A stretch of DNA of 64,000 bases, taken from NCBI GenBank assembly GCA_028714855.1, contig JAQTLP010000006.1:62001-126000 (forward strand), given 5' to 3'. The DNA comes from Phycisphaerae bacterium (GTDB lineage Bacteria > Planctomycetota > Phycisphaerae > Sedimentisphaerales > Anaerobacaceae). Of the stretch, positions 51,384 to 59,719 are shown piece after piece; the stretch's first letter is position 1, and every line of letters starts with the position of its first letter. Position numbers and translations under genes: made by a program. The notes beneath the pieces were generated by a model. It saw only the letters and a list, made by a program, of their open reading frames with translations, did not search any database and was not told the origin of the DNA.

Positions 51384-53279
51384 CTATCTGCTATTTTTTC
51401 GTTTTCTCAGCACAATTAACCCGCCTAAGCCGAGAATTGACAGAGTGTAAGGCTCGGGAACGAAGTTAGTTAGCTGAACTGAGGTGCTGTCATAGAGTAC
51501 ATCGAACGTCCCCCCACCGATGAAATTGACAGTGCCGATGGCATTACTGAATACACCGCTAATAGTATTGCCGGTGCCGGAGACTGTCAGGATAGTGAAT
51601 ATATCTGTCGGGGCGGGGATAAATTCCTCAAACGCCGATACAAAGAGGTCACCATCAAGGAAGGCGTCGCCTACGATGGCCAACTGGTCATAATCGGTGC
51701 CTAAAACTGTACCACCGATTTCGATTTTCAATATACCGGTATCGGATTGAACGTAGTCACCTGTAATACTTAGAATGCCAGGCGAAAGACCGGGGCTTAC
51801 CATTCCGCTGTTTACGAAGTCCACGCCTGAGATATTCAGTGCCCCAATCCCGGAAATTGTCCCGCCGGCCGTATTAATGAACGTATCACCCGTGACGGTG
51901 ACTATAGCTTCCAGTTCCAAGATGCTAAAGTCTCCTGAGTTGGTATGAGCCGCGCCGGTTTTGCCGAGAGCAACTGTTCGGCTGATATTTACTATGCCGT
52001 TGTTAGCCAGTCCAACTGAAAGCGTCCGAGTACCGCCGCTGCCCTCATTAACATTGACCTGTCCTTCGTTAGTAAGTGTGCCGGAGGTAACATAAAATCT
52101 TGAGTAATAGCCACTATCAATCGACTCCAGATTTATGACACCGCTATTGGTAAATCCATCGGCTGCTGTCAGCGTAGCATGCCCCCCGCCAAGACAGCCA
52201 AGAACCGTAACCGTCTGGTCGGGCGCGATATCACCGCTCAAGGTGCTGCTGCCACCCCGAACGGAAAAGCCGGCTGCCCCGGTTGAGCCCGGACCAATGT
52301 TCAATGATGAGTTCTGTATCATCAACTCACTGCCGGTAATCGTTCCACCGTTAAAGTTGAACGTAGCTGAATTCATACTGAATGCACCATCGACATCTAA
52401 TGTTCCATCGTTCTGGCTGAATGTCTGATTGTTGAGCGAGATTGTCAACGTCTTATCAGCAGCAATATTTAAATCGGCGTTGTTTGTGTATGAACCGCTG
52501 GACTTTAGGAAAGTCGTATCGGCATTGATATTTACTGTGTTATTGTTGTTCAGATTTGCCCCAAGTGTTCGCACACCACCGGTGCCTTCATTTATGTTGA
52601 TTTGGCCTTCGTTCGTAAGTGTGCCGGAGGTAACATTAAGCCTCGATTGATATGCACCATCGATTGAGTCCAGATTAATGGTGCCGGAGTTGGTAAAGCC
52701 ATTTGCCACTGTTAGTGCGGCGTGGTTTGCGTAAAAACCTTGAATTGTCAATTGCCCATTTTGGGCAAAGGTATTTGTGTTAATGGCTGAAGTGCCTCGT
52801 ACTGTCATATTGGCACTATTGTTTAGCGTGCCGGCACCGTCGTCGGCCCACGTGGAACTTTGCCAAAGCACATTGCCGTCCAGCAGCAAAGCACTATCTT
52901 CCACTGTCAGTGTTTTGCTGACAGCTGAAAGCGTAGCGTCGGCGGAATCCAAAGTAAAATTTGAAAGGGTAGGGCTGATATTCAGACTAACCGTATAGGC
53001 GCCGCCCATCGCGTTAATCGTAGCAGTATCGGCGGTGTCATCAGGAATCCCATCCGGGTCCCACAGAACTGAGTTATCCCAGTTGCCGGAGACCACAGAA
53101 TCCCACGTATAGGTGGTAGCAAAGATCGGATGAGCAAGTGCTGCGAGCATGGCCACAGCAAACAGAATGGCTAACTTGTGACAAATGCAACATGTGTTGG
53201 GCGACGGCTTGATGCCTCGGTTTACATTGGCTCTCCAAGAGGTTGTGCCGCCCATTTTGGAACTATCGGCTAATTTCAT
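51384..53279 (-). CDS. Exported PEP-CTERM protein with beta-solenoid repeats
   Basis: A 631-residue protein. Signal region near residues 26-50 (LAILFAVAMLAALAHPIFA), then a strand-rich passenger with NWDNSVLWDPDGIPDDTADT (as in autotransporter-associated strand proteins), and a C-terminal PEP-CTERM (VPEPYTLSILGLGGLIVLRK) that is cut by an exosortase. A segment of about 75 residues is present twice: INLDSIDGAYQSRLNVTSGT ... and INLESIDSGYYSRFYVTSGT ..., each followed by LTNEGQ and NEGTGG/NEGSGG. ATG 53279 has GGGAGAAGGAA before it. Probably surface or matrix protein. Confidence 0.85.
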   Translation of the reverse strand: MKLADSSKMGGTTSWRANVNRGIKPSPNTCCICHKLAILFAVAMLAALAHPIFATTYTWDSVVSGNWDNSVLWDPDGIPDDTADTATINAMGGAYTVSLNISPTLSNFTLDSADATLSAVSKTLTVEDSALLLDGNVLWQSSTWADDGAGTLNNSANMTVRGTSAINTNTFAQNGQLTIQGFYANHAALTVANGFTNSGTINLDSIDGAYQSRLNVTSGTLTNEGQININEGTGGVRTLGANLNNNNTVNINADTTFLKSSGSYTNNADLNIAADKTLTISLNNQTFSQNDGTLDVDGAFSMNSATFNFNGGTITGSELMIQNSSLNIGPGSTGAAGFSVRGGSSTLSGDIAPDQTVTVLGCLGGGHATLTAADGFTNSGVINLESIDSGYYSRFYVTSGTLTNEGQVNVNEGSGGTRTLSVGLANNGIVNISRTVALGKTGAAHTNSGDFSILELEAIVTVTGDTFINTAGGTISGIGALNISGVDFVNSGMVSPGLSPGILSITGDYVQSDTGILKIEIGGTVLGTDYDQLAIVGDAFLDGDLFVSAFEEFIPAPTDIFTILTVSGTGNTISGVFSNAIGTVNFIGGGTFDVLYDSTSVQLTNFVPEPYTLSILGLGGLIVLRKRKNSR

Positions 53280-53632
53280 TTTCCTTCTCCCTTTCTCTAC
53301 AGGCTCTTTCGCAACAAAATACAATTGTGCCTCTACCGCGTTTGGGCTATAAAGCAACTAGCTTTTTGTGGGAGGAAAGCCTGGCAGAAAACAAACCAAA
53401 CTCTCTCACCACTCTCCTTCTGTGAAACTATATCTTCTTTGTAACCATACCTCTTCGGTATAAAATATCAAGGAAAAAGGCTGATAAAAACAAGATTTTT
53501 TATGGAAAACTAAAAAAATGGTAACTGGCTTAAGACACGAGATTTGCAGTTTCAAGTAGCGTAAAACGCAAAGCGAAAAACTAAAAACCAAAGCTCAAAA
53601 TACAAAACTAACGCGGCTAAAACAATTTTGAA
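53280..53632. other. Promoter and leader region of the large PEP-CTERM gene
   Basis: No gene seen in 353 bases. The promoter (53444-53471) with its upstream box lies about 165 bases before the ATG, leaving a long leader that shares AAGGAG/GTGGTG and GCTTTC.CC/CAAAAAG elements with the leader of the 53633-54304 gene. The rest (53500-53632) is AT-rich with nothing recognised. Confidence 0.6.
53444..53502 (-). promoter_or_regulatory. PEP-CTERM promoter region, copy 3
   Basis: Minus strand: -35 TTGATA (53471-53466), 16-base spacer, -10 TATGGT (53449-53444). Upstream of the -35 is AAAATCTTGTTTTTATCAGC (53499-53480) then CTTTTTCC, shared with the promoters of the two other PEP-CTERM genes. Confidence 0.65.
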
Positions 53633-54304
53633 TTATGGCTTTATGCTCTTTGTTTTATGTTTTAAGCTACTTTTTCTTATAATCGCCAAGCCGCCTAAGC
53701 CGAGCAGGAAAACCGTCGCCGGTTCAGGAACTGTAAAGACCATATCATCGAGATTTACGGCCAACCATTCGCCGTTGTTTTCAAACCGAGCAAAATAAAA
53801 AGCCACATCACTTCGCAAACCGATAAACTGGTCTACATTCGTGTTGTTGTTAGTCGGGACTACAACCGAATCCAATAATACTCCATCAATATCGAAGATT
53901 GAAAGCGTAGTTGCCGTATAACCATAACCCTGGTCATTTCCAAAGAACGCCCCTAATTCGTAAATCGGTGATGAAAAAATCGCGTTGAGGTGCATGGCCC
54001 AAGTTGTAATTGCGGGGAATTTTGCGACTGTTGCAATGACGTTCGGAGGCGAAGTCGTAACATCACCTAAGCTTTGGACATCGTAAAGGAATATATCGTA
54101 GCCGTCATCTCTTGAGAATTCAACACCCTTATCAAGATAGCGAGTATTAGCAGCGGCACCTGATGGTCCATCATCAAAGCTGAGGGTTGTTGCAGAATAA
54201 ATGAACTCAGAAGGGGACATCAACTGAATAATGTCGGCTTCTCCGACAACCGAGACGCTCAACAACGTACCCACCAAACATATAAGAATTTGTTTTTTTA
54301 ACAT
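53633..54304 (-). CDS. PEP-CTERM exported protein
   Basis: A 223-residue protein with a signal peptide (KKQILICLVGTLLSVSVVGE), a strand-rich middle (ATTLSFDDGPSGAAANTRYL, ITTWAMHLNAIFSSPIYELG, ATTLSIFDIDGVLLDSVVVP) and the PEP-CTERM tail VPEPATVFLLGLGGLAIIRK followed by a basic end. The tail directs sorting by an exosortase and processing at the envelope. The middle looks like a lectin-like beta sandwich of the type seen on PEP-CTERM proteins; no enzyme motif. Ends 329 bases before the next gene's promoter start. Confidence 0.85.
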   Translation of the reverse strand: MLKKQILICLVGTLLSVSVVGEADIIQLMSPSEFIYSATTLSFDDGPSGAAANTRYLDKGVEFSRDDGYDIFLYDVQSLGDVTTSPPNVIATVAKFPAITTWAMHLNAIFSSPIYELGAFFGNDQGYGYTATTLSIFDIDGVLLDSVVVPTNNNTNVDQFIGLRSDVAFYFARFENNGEWLAVNLDDMVFTVPEPATVFLLGLGGLAIIRKSSLKHKTKSIKP

Positions 54305-54401
54305 CTGCTACCCCTTTCTTCCTTTTTGTTTTTCTAGAATGAAATTTCTTTTTGGTGAAAGCTTGGGAAAAAAGCTGTTCCACCACCACTCCTTTAGAAA
54401 T

Positions 54402-54462
54402 AACATATCCGATTAAGGAAAAAATGTCAAGGGAAAAAGGCCTACAAAAAGCAGCTTTTTTT
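54402..54462 (-). promoter_or_regulatory. PEP-CTERM promoter region, copy 2
   Basis: Minus strand: -35 TTGACA (54430-54425), 17-base spacer, -10 TATGTT (54407-54402), with the shared AAAGCTGCTTTTTGTAGGCC then TTTTTCCC box directly upstream. The start codon lies 98 bases downstream of the -10. Confidence 0.7.
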
Positions 54463-54502
54463 CGCGGAAATCAATAAATAGAAAGTGATACTACTAAAAA
54501 TA

Positions 54503-55129
54503 TTAACATGCCTTATGAGTTCTGCGATTAAATTTTCGCACCGCCAAGCCGCCTAGGCCGAGCAGGAAAATCGTCGCCGGTTCAGGAACTCCAGCAAGAT
54601 ATTCATCGCCCGCCGCCATAGCTGTAAGAGCTGACATATCAGGAAAACCTACCCCCTTCAGGGAATTCGCATAGTATGTCGCGCCGCTTTGCGATACCCA
54701 AAAAAACATATTTTCACCCGTTCCAACCGTGAACTCGGGCAGATAAATATCAAAACTGCCGCTGCCGACAAAATCCAATGTGAGTATGCAGGCCTCAAAC
54801 GTCTGGGTACTACCTGTATAGTGACTCACCCGTATGCCAAGGTTACCACTTTTTTCACCGTAATCCGTAACGGTGAAAGCCCCGGCCGAAAGCGACACCC
54901 AGGCCAGGTTATACGTTGAACCAGGCTCGGTTTCTTCATACAAATCATCCGCAGCAAAAGGCCACAGATAGGTATAAAGGTAAGGATTCGGAGATGTCCA
55001 TGGGACTGGGGCAAAGCTGACAGATGTTGGGCCGGCAACATCGAAAGTACCGCTTTTGGGAATGCCTCCCAGAGCAATACTGCCGCACAAAGCCGCAATA
55101 ACTAATATGAAGACGTACCGTCTTTTCAT
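54503..55129 (-). CDS. PEP-CTERM exported protein
   Basis: A 208-residue protein: signal peptide (MKRRYVFILVIAALCGSIAL), a strand-rich domain with TSVSFAPVPWTSPNPYLY, LAWVSLSAGAFTVTDYGEKS and LTLDFVGSGSFDIYLPEFTV, and the tail GVPEPATIFLLGLGGLAV-RK, an exosortase signal. Several starts are close together; GAGGAAA lies 6 bases before the ATG at 55129, so that start is chosen. No catalytic motif; probable extracellular matrix or surface protein. It is the nearest of the three PEP-CTERM genes to the NtrC-type regulator. Confidence 0.82.
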   Translation of the reverse strand: MKRRYVFILVIAALCGSIALGGIPKSGTFDVAGPTSVSFAPVPWTSPNPYLYTYLWPFAADDLYEETEPGSTYNLAWVSLSAGAFTVTDYGEKSGNLGIRVSHYTGSTQTFEACILTLDFVGSGSFDIYLPEFTVGTGENMFFWVSQSGATYYANSLKGVGFPDMSALTAMAAGDEYLAGVPEPATIFLLGLGGLAVRKFNRRTHKAC

Positions 55130-55262
55130 CATTTTCCTCATCCTGAATAATTATAACTCTCTGGCAAAAGGTGCGGTCTTAATTTCAGCTCAGCAGAATT
55201 AATAATTAACCAGAACTTGACTGCATTTGGATTAAAAAAGAATTCTCACCCCATTGATCATT

Positions 55263-55320
55263 AGTATACCTGTTTCGAAGAGAAATGTCAAGAAAAAACC
55301 GATAAAAACAGGATTCTTTG
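55263..55320 (-). promoter_or_regulatory. PEP-CTERM promoter region, copy 1
   Basis: Minus strand: -35 TTGACA (55291-55286), 17-base spacer, -10 TATACT (55268-55263), with AAAGAATCCTGTTTTTATCG then GTTTTTTC directly upstream. About 134 bases of leader precede the ATG at 55129. Confidence 0.75.
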
Positions 55321-55355: not shown

Positions 55356-56711
55356 TTACAGATTGTATTCTTTTATCTTCCGATAGAGCGTTCTTTCGCC
55401 GATTCCGAGGATTTTGGCGGTTTTTTCGCGGTTGTTACCGGTCTTTGCCAACGTGTCAATAATGGCCTGTTTCTCAAGCTCACTGAGCGTGCGGTCCTGT
55501 TTTGGCCGGCCGGCTGTCAACTGCCGCACCTGATATATTTCGGGGGGAACGTCGGCCACATCGAGCTTTTCACGGTCGCACATCACTACCATTGTTCTGA
55601 TACAGTTTCGAAGCTGGCGAATATTCCCGGGCCAGTTGAAAGCTGTAAGAATATTCATGGCTGCCTGTGTGATACCGGTAACCTTTGAGCCGGTCTCGGC
55701 AACAGCCTCTTCGATAAAATACCGGATAAAATCAGGTATGTCTTCCGCCCTGTCAGAGAGGTCAGGCAGAGAAACCCCGACCCCTTTGATTCTGAAATAT
55801 AAATCCTGCCTGAACTTCTTCTGTTCTATAAGCAACGTCAAATCATGATTTGTAGCACTGATTATTCGCACGTCCACGACAATCGGCTTACTGGAGCCAA
55901 CCGGATTAACAACCCCGTCTTCAATGACTCGCAGGAGTTTAGCCTGCATATTCAGCGGCATATCGCCAATCTCGTCCAGAAAAAGTGTTCCCTTGTCGGC
56001 TATTTCAAACAAGCCTTTTCTATCGGTTGCTGCACCGGTAAAGGCCCCTTTGACGTGGCCGAACAGTTCGCTTTCAAGCAGCGTTTCCGTTAGTCCCGCA
56101 CAATTAACAGGCCTGAAAGGTTTATCGGCGCGTTTGGAATTATAATGAATAGCTCTTGCCAGCAGTTCCTTGCCCGTTCCGGAGCGACCCTCAATCAAAA
56201 CAGATATATCTGTCGGGGCAACACGCCGAAGCACCTCAAATACCCCGTTCATCGCGGCGCTCTTGCCTCGCACACCTTCAAATTCGAAATCCCCAGCGCC
56301 CGCTCTGGCAACTTCAGTTCGACGGCGGGTCGCAGCAGAGACCTTTCTGCCTGCCTGCCCCACAAGCGTGCGAAGCTGATTAATGTCGATGGGTTTGACA
56401 AGATAATCGTATGCCCCCCGCCGCATTGCTTCCTTGCAGGTATCAATAGTAGCGTAGGCCGTTATCAGAATAACTTCGGTATCGGCATTATATTTCCTGG
56501 CCTGGCTGAGTATTTCCAGGCCGTCGATGTCACCGCCGAGTTTCAGGTCGGTAACAACAACATTAACCGTTTCGCTGCGAAGAATCTCCAGTGCATCAGA
56601 ACCGTTGTAAACCGCAATCGCCTTTGCACAGCATTTCTGGAGCGCCTCGGCAATGCCGTCGGCGTGGTCATGCTCATCATCTACAACCAGAACTATGATG
56701 TCCTTGCTCAT
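55356..56711 (-). CDS. NtrC-family sigma-54 response regulator
   Basis: A 451-residue regulator. Receiver domain (about 1-120, VLVVDDEHDHADGIAEAL, phospho-Asp in NVVVTDLKLGG), AAA+ domain (about 140-390) with Walker A EGRSGTGKELLARAIHY, the sigma-54 contact ESELFGHVKGAFTGA and GTLFLDEIGDMPLNMQAKLL, and a Fis-type helix-turn-helix at the end (TGNNREKTAKILGIGERTLY). It turns on sigma-54 promoters after phosphorylation. Starts 6 bases after the kinase gene, so they are a pair. It resembles PrsR-type regulators of exosortase systems, but no sigma-54 promoter was found at the PEP-CTERM genes. Confidence 0.95.
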   Translation of the reverse strand: MSKDIIVLVVDDEHDHADGIAEALQKCCAKAIAVYNGSDALEILRSETVNVVVTDLKLGGDIDGLEILSQARKYNADTEVILITAYATIDTCKEAMRRGAYDYLVKPIDINQLRTLVGQAGRKVSAATRRRTEVARAGAGDFEFEGVRGKSAAMNGVFEVLRRVAPTDISVLIEGRSGTGKELLARAIHYNSKRADKPFRPVNCAGLTETLLESELFGHVKGAFTGAATDRKGLFEIADKGTLFLDEIGDMPLNMQAKLLRVIEDGVVNPVGSSKPIVVDVRIISATNHDLTLLIEQKKFRQDLYFRIKGVGVSLPDLSDRAEDIPDFIRYFIEEAVAETGSKVTGITQAAMNILTAFNWPGNIRQLRNCIRTMVVMCDREKLDVADVPPEIYQVRQLTAGRPKQDRTLSELEKQAIIDTLAKTGNNREKTAKILGIGERTLYRKIKEYNL

Positions 56712-56717
56712 ATATCC

Positions 56718-57428
56718 TTAATCGGCCTGAAGAGGCAGTTTTATCGTAAATAATGTTCCTTTGCCGGGTTCGCTGTCAACGGTTATTGTGCCATTATGTG
56801 CCTCGACTATTCTCTTTGCGGTGGCCAGCCCCAGACCGGTACCGCTCGGCCGAAAAGAACAATAAGGCTTAAAAAGCTCGGGCAGTTTGTCCGCCGCTAT
56901 CCCGTTGCCGGTATCGCTAATCTGAATCACCGCTTTTTCTTTCTGCCTGGATGTTCTTATCATCAGTTCACCGCCGGTATTCATCGCCTGCTGTGCGTTA
57001 ATAAATAAATTCAATATAACCTGTTTTAGCATACCTGCATCAACTTTGCAAACCAGCGGCTCACTCGACAAACCCTGCCGAATCGTTATTGAGTTACTGT
57101 ACGCCTGGGGCGAATAAAAATCAACCATATCACTAAGCAGCTCATTGACATTGACACCGGCGAGCTGAAGTTCGGGTCTGCTGACGTACCGCAGAAAACC
57201 GTCAAGAATCTGCCCGAGTCTATCCGTTTCTTTTTGAACGACGGTAATTTTTTTGAGAGCTCTCGCTGCCGTCTGGTCGTTTTTACCCGGCCTTTGCAGT
57301 TCTTCGGCCGCAAGCTCAAGGTTGACCTTGATGGTGGAAAGGGGATTTTTTATTTCATGAGCAAGCTCGCCGGTTAACTTACTTAACTCTTCAAGCTGTT
57401 TGAAATGTTCGTTTTTACTCTTTTGCAT
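56718..57428 (-). CDS. Cytoplasmic sensor histidine kinase
   Basis: A 236-residue kinase without membrane helices or a sensing domain. HisKA part with the phospho-His in GELAHEIKNPLSTIKVNLEL, then the HATPase domain: N-box VILNLFINAQQAMNTGG, G1 IQISDTGNGIAADKLPELF, G2 GTGLGLATAKRIVEAHNG and PGKGTLFTIKLPLQ. It should phosphorylate the NtrC-type regulator that follows 6 bases later. Because the sensing part is missing, the signal must come through another protein or from the cytoplasm. Confidence 0.93.
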   Translation of the reverse strand: MQKSKNEHFKQLEELSKLTGELAHEIKNPLSTIKVNLELAAEELQRPGKNDQTAARALKKITVVQKETDRLGQILDGFLRYVSRPELQLAGVNVNELLSDMVDFYSPQAYSNSITIRQGLSSEPLVCKVDAGMLKQVILNLFINAQQAMNTGGELMIRTSRQKEKAVIQISDTGNGIAADKLPELFKPYCSFRPSGTGLGLATAKRIVEAHNGTITVDSEPGKGTLFTIKLPLQAD

Positions 57429-57515
57429 CTATTTCCCCCGCATACCGTTTAAATCTACAAATTAGATTGTCACTGCCGCCCGGCATTTTAACTTTGCCCC
57501 CCGGCCAAAGTACCA

Positions 57516-59654
57516 TTATTTTTTACTGTCGGTTTGTGCCTTTTCGCCCTTGTTAAGCTCAGCGAGAGCGGCCTTGCGGGAAAGTTTAAATCTGCCCTGC
57601 TCATCAATCATCAATAATTTCACAGGTATCAAATCACCCATTTTGCATACCTCTTCGGCGTTTTTGACGTAGCCGGTGCTTAGTTCGCTGATATGACACA
57701 GCCCTTCCACTCCGGGCGTGATTTCAACAAATACTCCAAAGTCTTTTACAGACACCACTTTCGAGTTTTCATATATCCGCCCCACTACCGGAGGCGTGGT
57801 CATCCCTTCGATAATATCCCTGGCCTTGAGGTGGCCGTCACCATCTATGCAGCTTATAAAAATAGTTCCGTCTTCTTCGATTTCAATCGTTGTGTCGGTC
57901 TGCTCCTGAATACTTTTAATCATCTTTCCGCCCGGTCCAATCACCTTGCCGATAAACTCAGGGTCAATTTCGATACTTATCAGTTTCGGCGCATACTTGC
58001 TCAATTCGGGTCTGGGCTGACTGATGACGCCGGTCATAATCTTCAAAATCTCCAGACGGGCTGTTTTCGCCCGCTCCAGCGCCTCGGCCATAATATTATG
58101 CGCAAGCCCTTCAGCTTTGATATCGAGTTGTATCGCCGTAATACCGTCAACAGTACCGGCAACTTTGAAATCCATATCGCCGTAATGGTCTTCCTCGCCA
58201 ATGATGTCTGTCAGCAATGCATACCGCCCCTTTGCGTCACTGACCATTCCGATTGATATGCCAGCGACCGGTTTTTTGATTGGAACACCCGCATCCATTA
58301 AAGCGAGCGTACCTCCGCAAACCGAAGCCATCGAGCTGGAACCGTTCGATTCCGTAATATCAGATACTATCCTGACGGTATATGCAAATTCTGCCTCCGG
58401 CGGCCTCACGCCTCCCAGCGCACGTTCCGCAAGAGCGCCGTGTCCGATTTCTCTTCGGCCTGGCCCGCGAACCGGACGTACTTCGCCGACGGAAAACGGC
58501 GGGAAATTGTAATGGAGCGTAAAACTTTGAGCGTATTCTTCCATCAAACCATCTATAATCTGAGCATCCCGGACAGTGCCGAGGGTTACGCTCACTATCG
58601 CCTGTGTTTCTCCCCGGCTAAATAACGCCGACCCGTGCGTCCGCGGCAAAAAGCCTACTTCACAAACTATCTGGCGAACATCATTGTAACCTCTGCCATC
58701 GAGTCTTTTACCTTCCAGCAGCAGCTTGCGGACAACCTGGCCCTCTATCTTGTCGAAGATTCGTTTAAGCATCGCTTTGGTACATTTAGGCTCAGCACCG
58801 TTCACCGCCTCACAATATTCCGTGTTAAGCTGTTCAACTAATTCTTTAACAGCAGCTTTGCGTTCCTGCTTAACTGGTATTTGCTTGGATTCGTATAATT
58901 TATCTGCCGTCTGTGAACTAATTTGCGAGTAAAGCTCCTCGTCTATCTCCACAAGAGGGATTTCCTTTTCGACGCCGGCTTTTTCTTTGAGCTCCTCAAT
59001 CATTTCACAAACCTGGACAATCGTTTGTTGTGCTGTTGCAATCGCATCAGCAATAACCTGTTCCGGCAATTCCTTCGCGCTGACTTCAATCATATTTAAC
59101 GCTTCTTTACGTCCTCCAAGAAGCAGGTTCAGGTCGCTTGTCTCAAGCTGCTGATACGTGGGGTTGACCACAAATTCGCCGTCAACTCTGCCTAATCTGC
59201 AGGCGCCGGTCGGGCCCATGAACGGAATTTTGCTTATCGTAAGCGCAGCACTGGCACCTACCATTGCCAAAATATCAGGGTCGTTCACATTGTCTGCGCT
59301 CAAAACGTCTGCTATGATTTGAACTTCCTGAAAATAGCCCTCGGGAAACAACGGACGAATAGGCCTGTCTATCATTCTTGCCGTCAGAATTTCTTTCGTG
59401 CTCGGCCTGCCCTCGCGTTTAATAAAACCGCCCGGAAACTTGCCCGCAGCACAGTGCTTCTCCCGATACTCAACGCTTAGCGGGAAAAAATCGATTTCCT
59501 CGTTCCTCGGAGGCGCTGTTACCACAGTAACAAGAACAACGGTATCGCCGTACTGAACTACAACCGCTCCGTCTGCTTGTTTAGCAACTTTGCCGGTTTC
59601 GATGGATAACAATCTTCCCCCGATTTGCTTTTCTACTCTGCATACATCAAACAT
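57516..59654 (-). CDS. pnp: Polyribonucleotide nucleotidyltransferase (PNPase)
   Basis: Phosphorolytic 3'-5' exoribonuclease of mRNA decay. The 712-residue protein has two RNase PH domains (GGRLLSIETGKVAKQADGAV and RTHGSALFSRGETQAIVSVT, AGISIGMVSDAKGRYALLTD, DFKVAGTVDGITAIQLDIKA), a KH domain (KVIGPGGKMIKSIQEQTDTT) and an S1 domain (VKDFGVFVEITPGVEGLCHI), all in the usual order. ATG 59654 with GAGGT upstream is preferred to the TTG at 59660. It follows rpsO, the classic rpsO-pnp order. Confidence 0.97.
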   Translation of the reverse strand: MFDVCRVEKQIGGRLLSIETGKVAKQADGAVVVQYGDTVVLVTVVTAPPRNEEIDFFPLSVEYREKHCAAGKFPGGFIKREGRPSTKEILTARMIDRPIRPLFPEGYFQEVQIIADVLSADNVNDPDILAMVGASAALTISKIPFMGPTGACRLGRVDGEFVVNPTYQQLETSDLNLLLGGRKEALNMIEVSAKELPEQVIADAIATAQQTIVQVCEMIEELKEKAGVEKEIPLVEIDEELYSQISSQTADKLYESKQIPVKQERKAAVKELVEQLNTEYCEAVNGAEPKCTKAMLKRIFDKIEGQVVRKLLLEGKRLDGRGYNDVRQIVCEVGFLPRTHGSALFSRGETQAIVSVTLGTVRDAQIIDGLMEEYAQSFTLHYNFPPFSVGEVRPVRGPGRREIGHGALAERALGGVRPPEAEFAYTVRIVSDITESNGSSSMASVCGGTLALMDAGVPIKKPVAGISIGMVSDAKGRYALLTDIIGEEDHYGDMDFKVAGTVDGITAIQLDIKAEGLAHNIMAEALERAKTARLEILKIMTGVISQPRPELSKYAPKLISIEIDPEFIGKVIGPGGKMIKSIQEQTDTTIEIEEDGTIFISCIDGDGHLKARDIIEGMTTPPVVGRIYENSKVVSVKDFGVFVEITPGVEGLCHISELSTGYVKNAEEVCKMGDLIPVKLLMIDEQGRFKLSRKAALAELNKGEKAQTDSKK

Positions 59655-59719
59655 ATACAAACCTCAATTATGGGTGCAAAAATCACACGTTACTTGTGCA
59701 CTTTGGCTTTCGTACTCTT

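Follow-up and report, generated by a model that had tools for sequence, protein, structure and literature searches.

Three tandem genes for otherwise different PEP-CTERM proteins in an uncultured planctomycete (Phycisphaerae bacterium, GCA_028714855.1, contig JAQTLP010000006.1, positions 62,001-126,000 of the forward strand; genome size 2.31 Mb) each lie behind a promoter in which a box of about 30 bp is fused directly to the -35 hexamer, and two of these promoters are followed by a conserved leader hairpin. The explanation towards which we lean, with moderate confidence and on the strength of sequence comparisons, combines a housekeeping promoter for each gene, the box as a near-ideal upstream element, and, for genes A and B, a leader that would set the lifetime or the translation of the mRNA. 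All gene and box coordinates are positions in the window, i.e., the whole stretch of 64,000 nt that was analysed. The start of gene A was set at the ATG at 53279, where a Shine-Dalgarno sequence is present. The promoters, with their scores in the box profile R1, and the genes, with their scores in the PEP-CTERM model TIGR02595 (cut-off 16 bits), are as follows:

51384..53279, minus strand: gene A, 631-aa repetitive exported PEP-CTERM protein (18.5 bits)
53444..53501, minus strand: box and promoter A, with A-tract, TTTTTATCAGCC, T-tract, -35 TTGATA at 53466-53471 and -10 TATGGT at 53444-53449 (54.8 bits)
53633..54304, minus strand: gene B, 223-aa PEP-CTERM protein (20.8 bits)
54402..54462, minus strand: box and promoter B, with -35 TTGACA at 54425-54430 and -10 TATGTT at 54402-54407 (58.1 bits)
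54503..55141, minus strand: gene C, 212-aa PEP-CTERM protein (20.2 bits)
55263..55319, minus strand: box and promoter C, with -35 TTGACA at 55286-55291 and -10 TATACT at 55263-55268 (62.3 bits)

On the minus strand, the layout is AAAAAATCTTGTTTTTATCAGCCTTTTTCC-TTGATA-N16-TATGGT for promoter A, AAAAAAAGCTGCTTTTTGTAGGCCTTTTTCCC-TTGACA-N17-TATGTT for promoter B and AAAGAATCCTGTTTTTATCGGTTTTTTC-TTGACA-N17-TATACT for promoter C, with spacers of 16, 17 and 17 bp between -35 and -10. A base-by-base rereading agrees with what an earlier sequence-only reading had described, namely, before each gene, a string of about 30 bases on the minus strand joined to a -35 and a -10 that are spaced by 16-17 bases, and its statement that the three proteins are otherwise different also holds, since all of them score above the TIGR02595 cut-off while blastp confines their similarity to the tail. 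Copy C does not contain the literal CTTTTTCC, and the two perfect matches to TTTTTRTMRGNNTTTTTC in the window are those of A and B. With up to two mismatches, this motif is found six times in the window against 0.98 expected, a number that none of 100 shuffles reached. Across all box copies, 7 to 10 nt separate the central GG/AG from the -35.

A fuller box pattern occurs three times in the 2.31-Mb genome, only at A, B and C, and is absent from the reversed control; a random scatter over the genome, which would have spoken against the earlier reading, is not what is found. The genome holds 41 PEP-CTERM matches above cut-off, and the upstream regions of the 40 called PEP-CTERM genes were read and scanned with R1. 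Besides A, B and C no VPEP protein of the genome is preceded by the box (3 of 41), and several of the other genes have ordinary TTGACA/TATAAT promoters with T-rich sequence ahead of the -35. The suggestion that the box marks a regulon thus fails in its simple form, and a genome-wide mark of PEP-CTERM genes is ruled out by the same count.

Across the 89 genomes of the family, a search with R1 revealed additional loci with strong copies in G006, G020 and G096, and about ten other genomes have weaker ones. Where the gene after the box can be read in relatives, it encodes a PEP-CTERM protein (G015, G023, G074, G076), a variant with a VPxPGA tail (G098), or another exported or unassignable product (G095, G082, G006). 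The exact box pattern was found at six places among 84,980 species, four in members of the family (Planctomycetota, Phycisphaerae) and two in Clostridia that are taken as chance. As a side observation, a promoter in G005 (L075, G005:C27 near 51519) follows three tandem copies of a roughly 20-bp unit (TTTTTGTCAGATAAACATTA) and lies ahead of an 853-aa exported protein.

These loci bear on the idea that the likeness of the three promoters reflects nothing but a local duplication of a promoter with its PEP-CTERM gene, the coding parts having later been exchanged or diverged. The tandem arrangement of the genes would suit this idea, and so would a pair of nearly identical 290-bp copies located at contig ends in G020; however, proteins A, B and C are dissimilar outside the tail, and relatives have the box at different loci, ahead of different genes, so that selection on the sequence would still be needed. 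We regard such a history as quite improbable, and simple gene duplication as a full account is rejected because the proteins are non-homologous outside the tail. The G020 pair itself, at the ends of contigs C1 and C20 (L074/L136), comprises box plus leader, is 95% identical and reaches the contig end in both cases, which suggests a repeat that broke the assembly.

What the box most resembles became apparent from ordinary promoters. TTGACA sites in 1.19 Mb of these genomes were compared, 49 having a fitting -10 and neither box nor leader, and 453 having no -10. The 49 promoter-like sites show an A/T excess at several positions from -20 to -14 and from -8 to -4 before the -35, as well as an enrichment of G at -10/-9. 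At position -16, A/T reaches 80% against 50% in the sites without -10 (p 7e-5), A/T is also in excess at -7 and -5 (p 6e-5 and 2e-5), and a C directly before the hexamer is found in 51% against 16%. Ordinary promoters therefore show the layout of the box in a weaker form, and the box is best read as the strong form of their UP-like upstream element. Of the two interpretations offered before, a regulon or an unusual UP-like element, it is accordingly the second that has gained support, and the first that in its simple form has not.

UP elements are known from sigma-70 promoters, E. coli rrnB P1 being one example. Like them, the box has two A/T-rich blocks immediately ahead of the -35, spaced by about 10 bp or one helical turn; unlike them, it has coding-strand T-tracts that flank a conserved GG, and a C precedes TTGACA. 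When the -35 was left out of the box profile (R2), the 14 best matches (13 training sequences and one new) were still all directly joined to TTGAC, as were several weaker new matches, from which it follows that box and -35 belong together. The variable spacing of the GG fits an UP-like element better than a rigid activator site. Nevertheless, the GG and the sequence of the tracts vary less than a mere demand for A/T would require, so that a specific protein may yet play a part at the box.

Some weak R2 matches that are uncoupled from a -35 are perfect intrinsic terminators with the same look of A-tract, T-loop and T-tract. The box, with its A-tract, CC, loop TTTTT, GG and T-tract, resembles such real terminators picked by R2 at low score, and could in principle serve the upstream gene as an intrinsic terminator that is weak or has decayed. 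This is highly improbable: a stable G+C stem followed by a U-run is not present, every strong copy is attached to a -35, and the folding energy of the box (about -1 to -10 kcal/mol) is close to that of shuffled sequence, compared with -16 to -19 for real terminators, a weakness for which the terminator reading is rejected.

The A-tract of box C begins 36 bp past the stop codon of a response-regulator gene, which is itself adjoined by a histidine kinase gene:

55356..56711, minus strand: NtrC-type response regulator (receiver, AAA+ sigma-54 domain, Fis HTH), conserved neighbour upstream of box C
56718..57428, minus strand: histidine kinase gene, adjoining the response regulator

Genes for PNPase, histidine kinase and NtrC-type response regulator stand in a row at 55356-59660, and the same row is seen in G006. 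The box could be the operator of a dedicated activator or repressor for a small set of surface proteins, for example a regulator that contacts polymerase upstream of the -35. In keeping with this, the GG and both tracts are kept across genera before non-homologous genes, the exact pattern is restricted to the four family members apart from the chance-like Clostridia matches, and the NtrC-type gene adjoins the box in four genomes. In 4 of 30 inspected loci (this genome, G006, G086 and G087) the box closely follows the response-regulator gene, and the gene after it differs, being a PEP-CTERM protein here, an unrelated PEP-CTERM protein in G086/G087 and, on our reading of the sequence, a metallophosphoesterase-like exported protein in G006; these products are non-homologous outside the tail. 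We nevertheless consider a dedicated operator unlikely, because a GG-to-(-35) distance varying between 7 and 10 nt is unusual for an activator touching polymerase, because ordinary promoters have the same layout, and because the adjoining regulator is of the enhancer type that activates sigma-54 while no good sigma-54 promoter is present. Its orthologues (65-88% identity) are moreover widespread in the family, mostly in genomes without a strong box.

The lack of a good sigma-54 promoter also separates these genes from the proteobacterial system, in which a cis-regulatory site of PEP-CTERM genes acts with sigma-54 and PrsK/PrsR (Haft, 2006; PMC1569441). Conserved DNA before PEP-CTERM genes, often as single-gene units with long leaders, is common to both; unlike the proteobacterial site, which consists of a -24/-12 sigma-54 promoter plus an activator motif and is limited to Proteobacteria (PMC1569441), the box here joins a -35/-10 promoter. 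In a search for the -24(GG)/-12(GC) motif, the best GG-N10-GC candidates match only seven positions and none lies at the three promoters, and the response regulator scores 356.7 bits against PrsR (TIGR02915), under the cut-off of 502.6. Control by PrsR and sigma-54 is ruled out on these two grounds.

The reading of the box as a strong UP-like element concerns the DNA up to the -35. In an alignment of box promoters, similarity extends past the -10 in A, B and several relatives, and this part was captured in a covariance model (R3) built from nine leader sequences with a short calibration. It comprises GGAGGAGUGGUGAGAAGGCUU, a variable loop of 4-24 nt (mostly 14-16), AAGCUUUCCCCCAC and then A-rich sequence, and is found in the window at two places, both of which are R3 training sequences:

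53359..53424, minus strand: leader hairpin A, 5' UTR of gene A (R3 47.4 bits, E 3.7e-10 per genome), part of alignment A5
54342..54398, minus strand: leader hairpin B, 5' UTR of gene B (R3 36.1 bits, E 5.5e-7)

Downstream of promoter C, the R3 leader was sought and not found, and the box copies in G086/G087 likewise have no leader; box and leader are therefore separable. R3 has 116 matches in 47 of the 89 family genomes (E up to 0.05), with up to 10 per genome. Outside the family, matches were seen in three genomes only of the class sample (E up to 0.001) and in 1 of 391 other genomes of the phylum sample, which doubles as a check of specificity. The earlier reading did not include this leader, which follows two of the three promoters and marks a much larger set of exported-protein genes across the family. 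None of the 4227 Rfam covariance models matched at any leader included in the search; a tRNA and two chance matches elsewhere were all that came up.

The structure of the leader was assessed in an alignment of 70 leaders (A5), which was fitted to the R3 structure and therefore favours it. In A5, 88.8% of the stem cells pair and compensatory changes occur in 7 of 8 pairs, so that the conserved stem is kept as expected for a structured leader; 31 double-changed stem cells stand against 13.7 in shuffles (0 of 500 reach this), and the score drops on sliding the partners. A second helix further out (GUGG/CCAC) is plausible and weaker, with pairing in 68.5% of its cells. Because the stability of the hairpin is unremarkable, being only mildly above shuffled (mean z -0.9) with the conserved arms paired in 42 of 70 minimum-energy folds, the case for structure rests on conservation and covariation.

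In 51 of 69 contexts read, a scored -35/-10 pair lies just upstream of the leader, and the GGAG of the leader follows the -10 by a median of 19 nt (50 cases with a strict pair), so that the hairpin probably lies near the 5' terminus of the transcript. Upstream of the -10, a shared CAATC-G motif was considered as the signature of a specialised sigma factor and dropped, since the enrichment is too weak (AATC is present in 13 of the 51 promoters ahead of leaders and in 6 of 59 controls). The distance to the start codon is very variable, and the leader is far from most start codons. A leader peptide as in attenuators was ruled out for lack of reading-frame conservation: the loop lengths are distributed as 25/28/17 over residues 0/1/2 modulo 3, a lack of three-base rhythm that makes such a peptide unlikely, and the start-codon frame is no longer open than a neighbouring frame.

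The genes behind the leader encode, to a large extent, proteins that look exported. With ORFs called mechanically, PEP-CTERM-type tails are present in 22 of 55 complete ORFs after the leader compared with 5 of 168 control ORFs (p 3e-11), and in 20 of 49 when the training loci are left out. By a simple rule, 55 of 64 leader-downstream proteins look exported vs 52 of 168 controls, and these 64 fall into 45 sequence clusters. A homologue of gene B in G015 (62% identical), which lay outside the R3 training, likewise has the leader. At five loci (L241, L253, L263, L264, L285) the leader precedes proteins of 188-277 aa with a LYxxxQWExWELL-like start and one hydrophobic segment; these five cluster together, and the one member searched against Pfam (L241) matched no family above cut-off.

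A leader so widely used before unrelated genes could be a switch that binds a ligand or a protein, i.e., a riboswitch or a CsrA-type target, in which case A and B would belong to a set of exported-protein genes under common post-transcriptional control. In agreement with this, unpaired purines are conserved alongside a covarying stem (41 of 70 leaders contain ANGGA), and CsrA is encoded in 75 of the 89 family genomes, although its presence is so nearly universal in the family that it does not discriminate. The small stem with its variable loop is unlike most metabolite switches and the leader is distant from most start codons, and we consider a switch of this kind rather unlikely.

In the explanation that we prefer, each of genes A, B and C would be transcribed from its own housekeeping-type, sigma-70-like promoter, and the box would represent a near-ideal version of the family's upstream element, in which GG separates two A/T tracts spaced by roughly one turn of the helix and C precedes TTGACA. 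It would probably raise promoter strength via the C-terminal domains of the RNA polymerase alpha subunits and via DNA bending. The transcripts of A and B would then start with a purine-rich, Shine-Dalgarno-like stretch followed by the conserved hairpin, a leader that many unrelated exported-protein genes of the family appear to use as well, and whose likeliest role would be to determine, at the 5' end, how long the mRNA lives or how well it is translated, whether by its own structure, by a ribosome docked there or by a protein that binds the RNA. The simplest effect would be on message stability, by analogy with 5' stem-loops and Shine-Dalgarno-like stabilisers. The boxes with their restricted occurrence, the promoter layout in the controls, and the leader with its covariation and its associated genes are observed, and transcription starts, polymerase contact and the leader effect are the steps that we infer here.

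Stabilisers at the 5' terminus of mRNAs include the ompA 5' stem-loop, the aprE leader and STAB-SD, among the studies listed in PMC3997798. The leader resembles them in combining Shine-Dalgarno-like purines with a stem-loop close to the probable 5' end, and is unlike them in that one conserved sequence and stem recurs before dozens of unrelated genes and that its role in decay is a prediction. Candidate structured RNAs, including cis-regulatory ones proposed from covariation as here, were collected by Weinberg (2010; PMC2864571), among them the Rhodopirellula-1 motif, which occurs in Planctomycetes and is given there without an Rfam number. As the leader is found mainly in one family and is nearly absent from the phylum sample, identity with Rhodopirellula-1 is doubtful, a judgement based on distribution. 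Full-text searches of the literature for a promoter, a leader or a riboswitch of planctomycete PEP-CTERM genes yielded no description of what is seen here. We tentatively propose that the leader may be an undescribed class of cis-regulatory RNA that coordinates exported and PEP-CTERM surface proteins in one family of Phycisphaerae, with A and B as members that have an extreme upstream element.

The 2006 study of PEP-CTERM proteins stated that more regulatory proteins and DNA motifs were still awaiting discovery, inside and outside Proteobacteria (PMC1569441). The shared promoter layout and the shared leader RNA before exported-protein genes provide a testable candidate in Planctomycetota, and the covariance model of the leader is a means to collect such genes and a route to asking whether the output of surface proteins is set at the level of the mRNA. 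Two further arrangements were seen among the PEP-CTERM genes of G000. Three paralogous genes for proteins of about 294-327 aa (L052, L053 and L060, on contigs C11, C3 and C15) have another conserved, hairpin-like leader around GACGGTCGxCCGGTGTGTAACCGGCCGAATCCACACCC, for which Rfam gave no match at gathering threshold. Moreover, seven different PEP-CTERM genes stand in tandem at C3:95585-100924 (L055), and the short spacers between them often contain a small hairpin, TGCGGxCGxTCCGCAGC.
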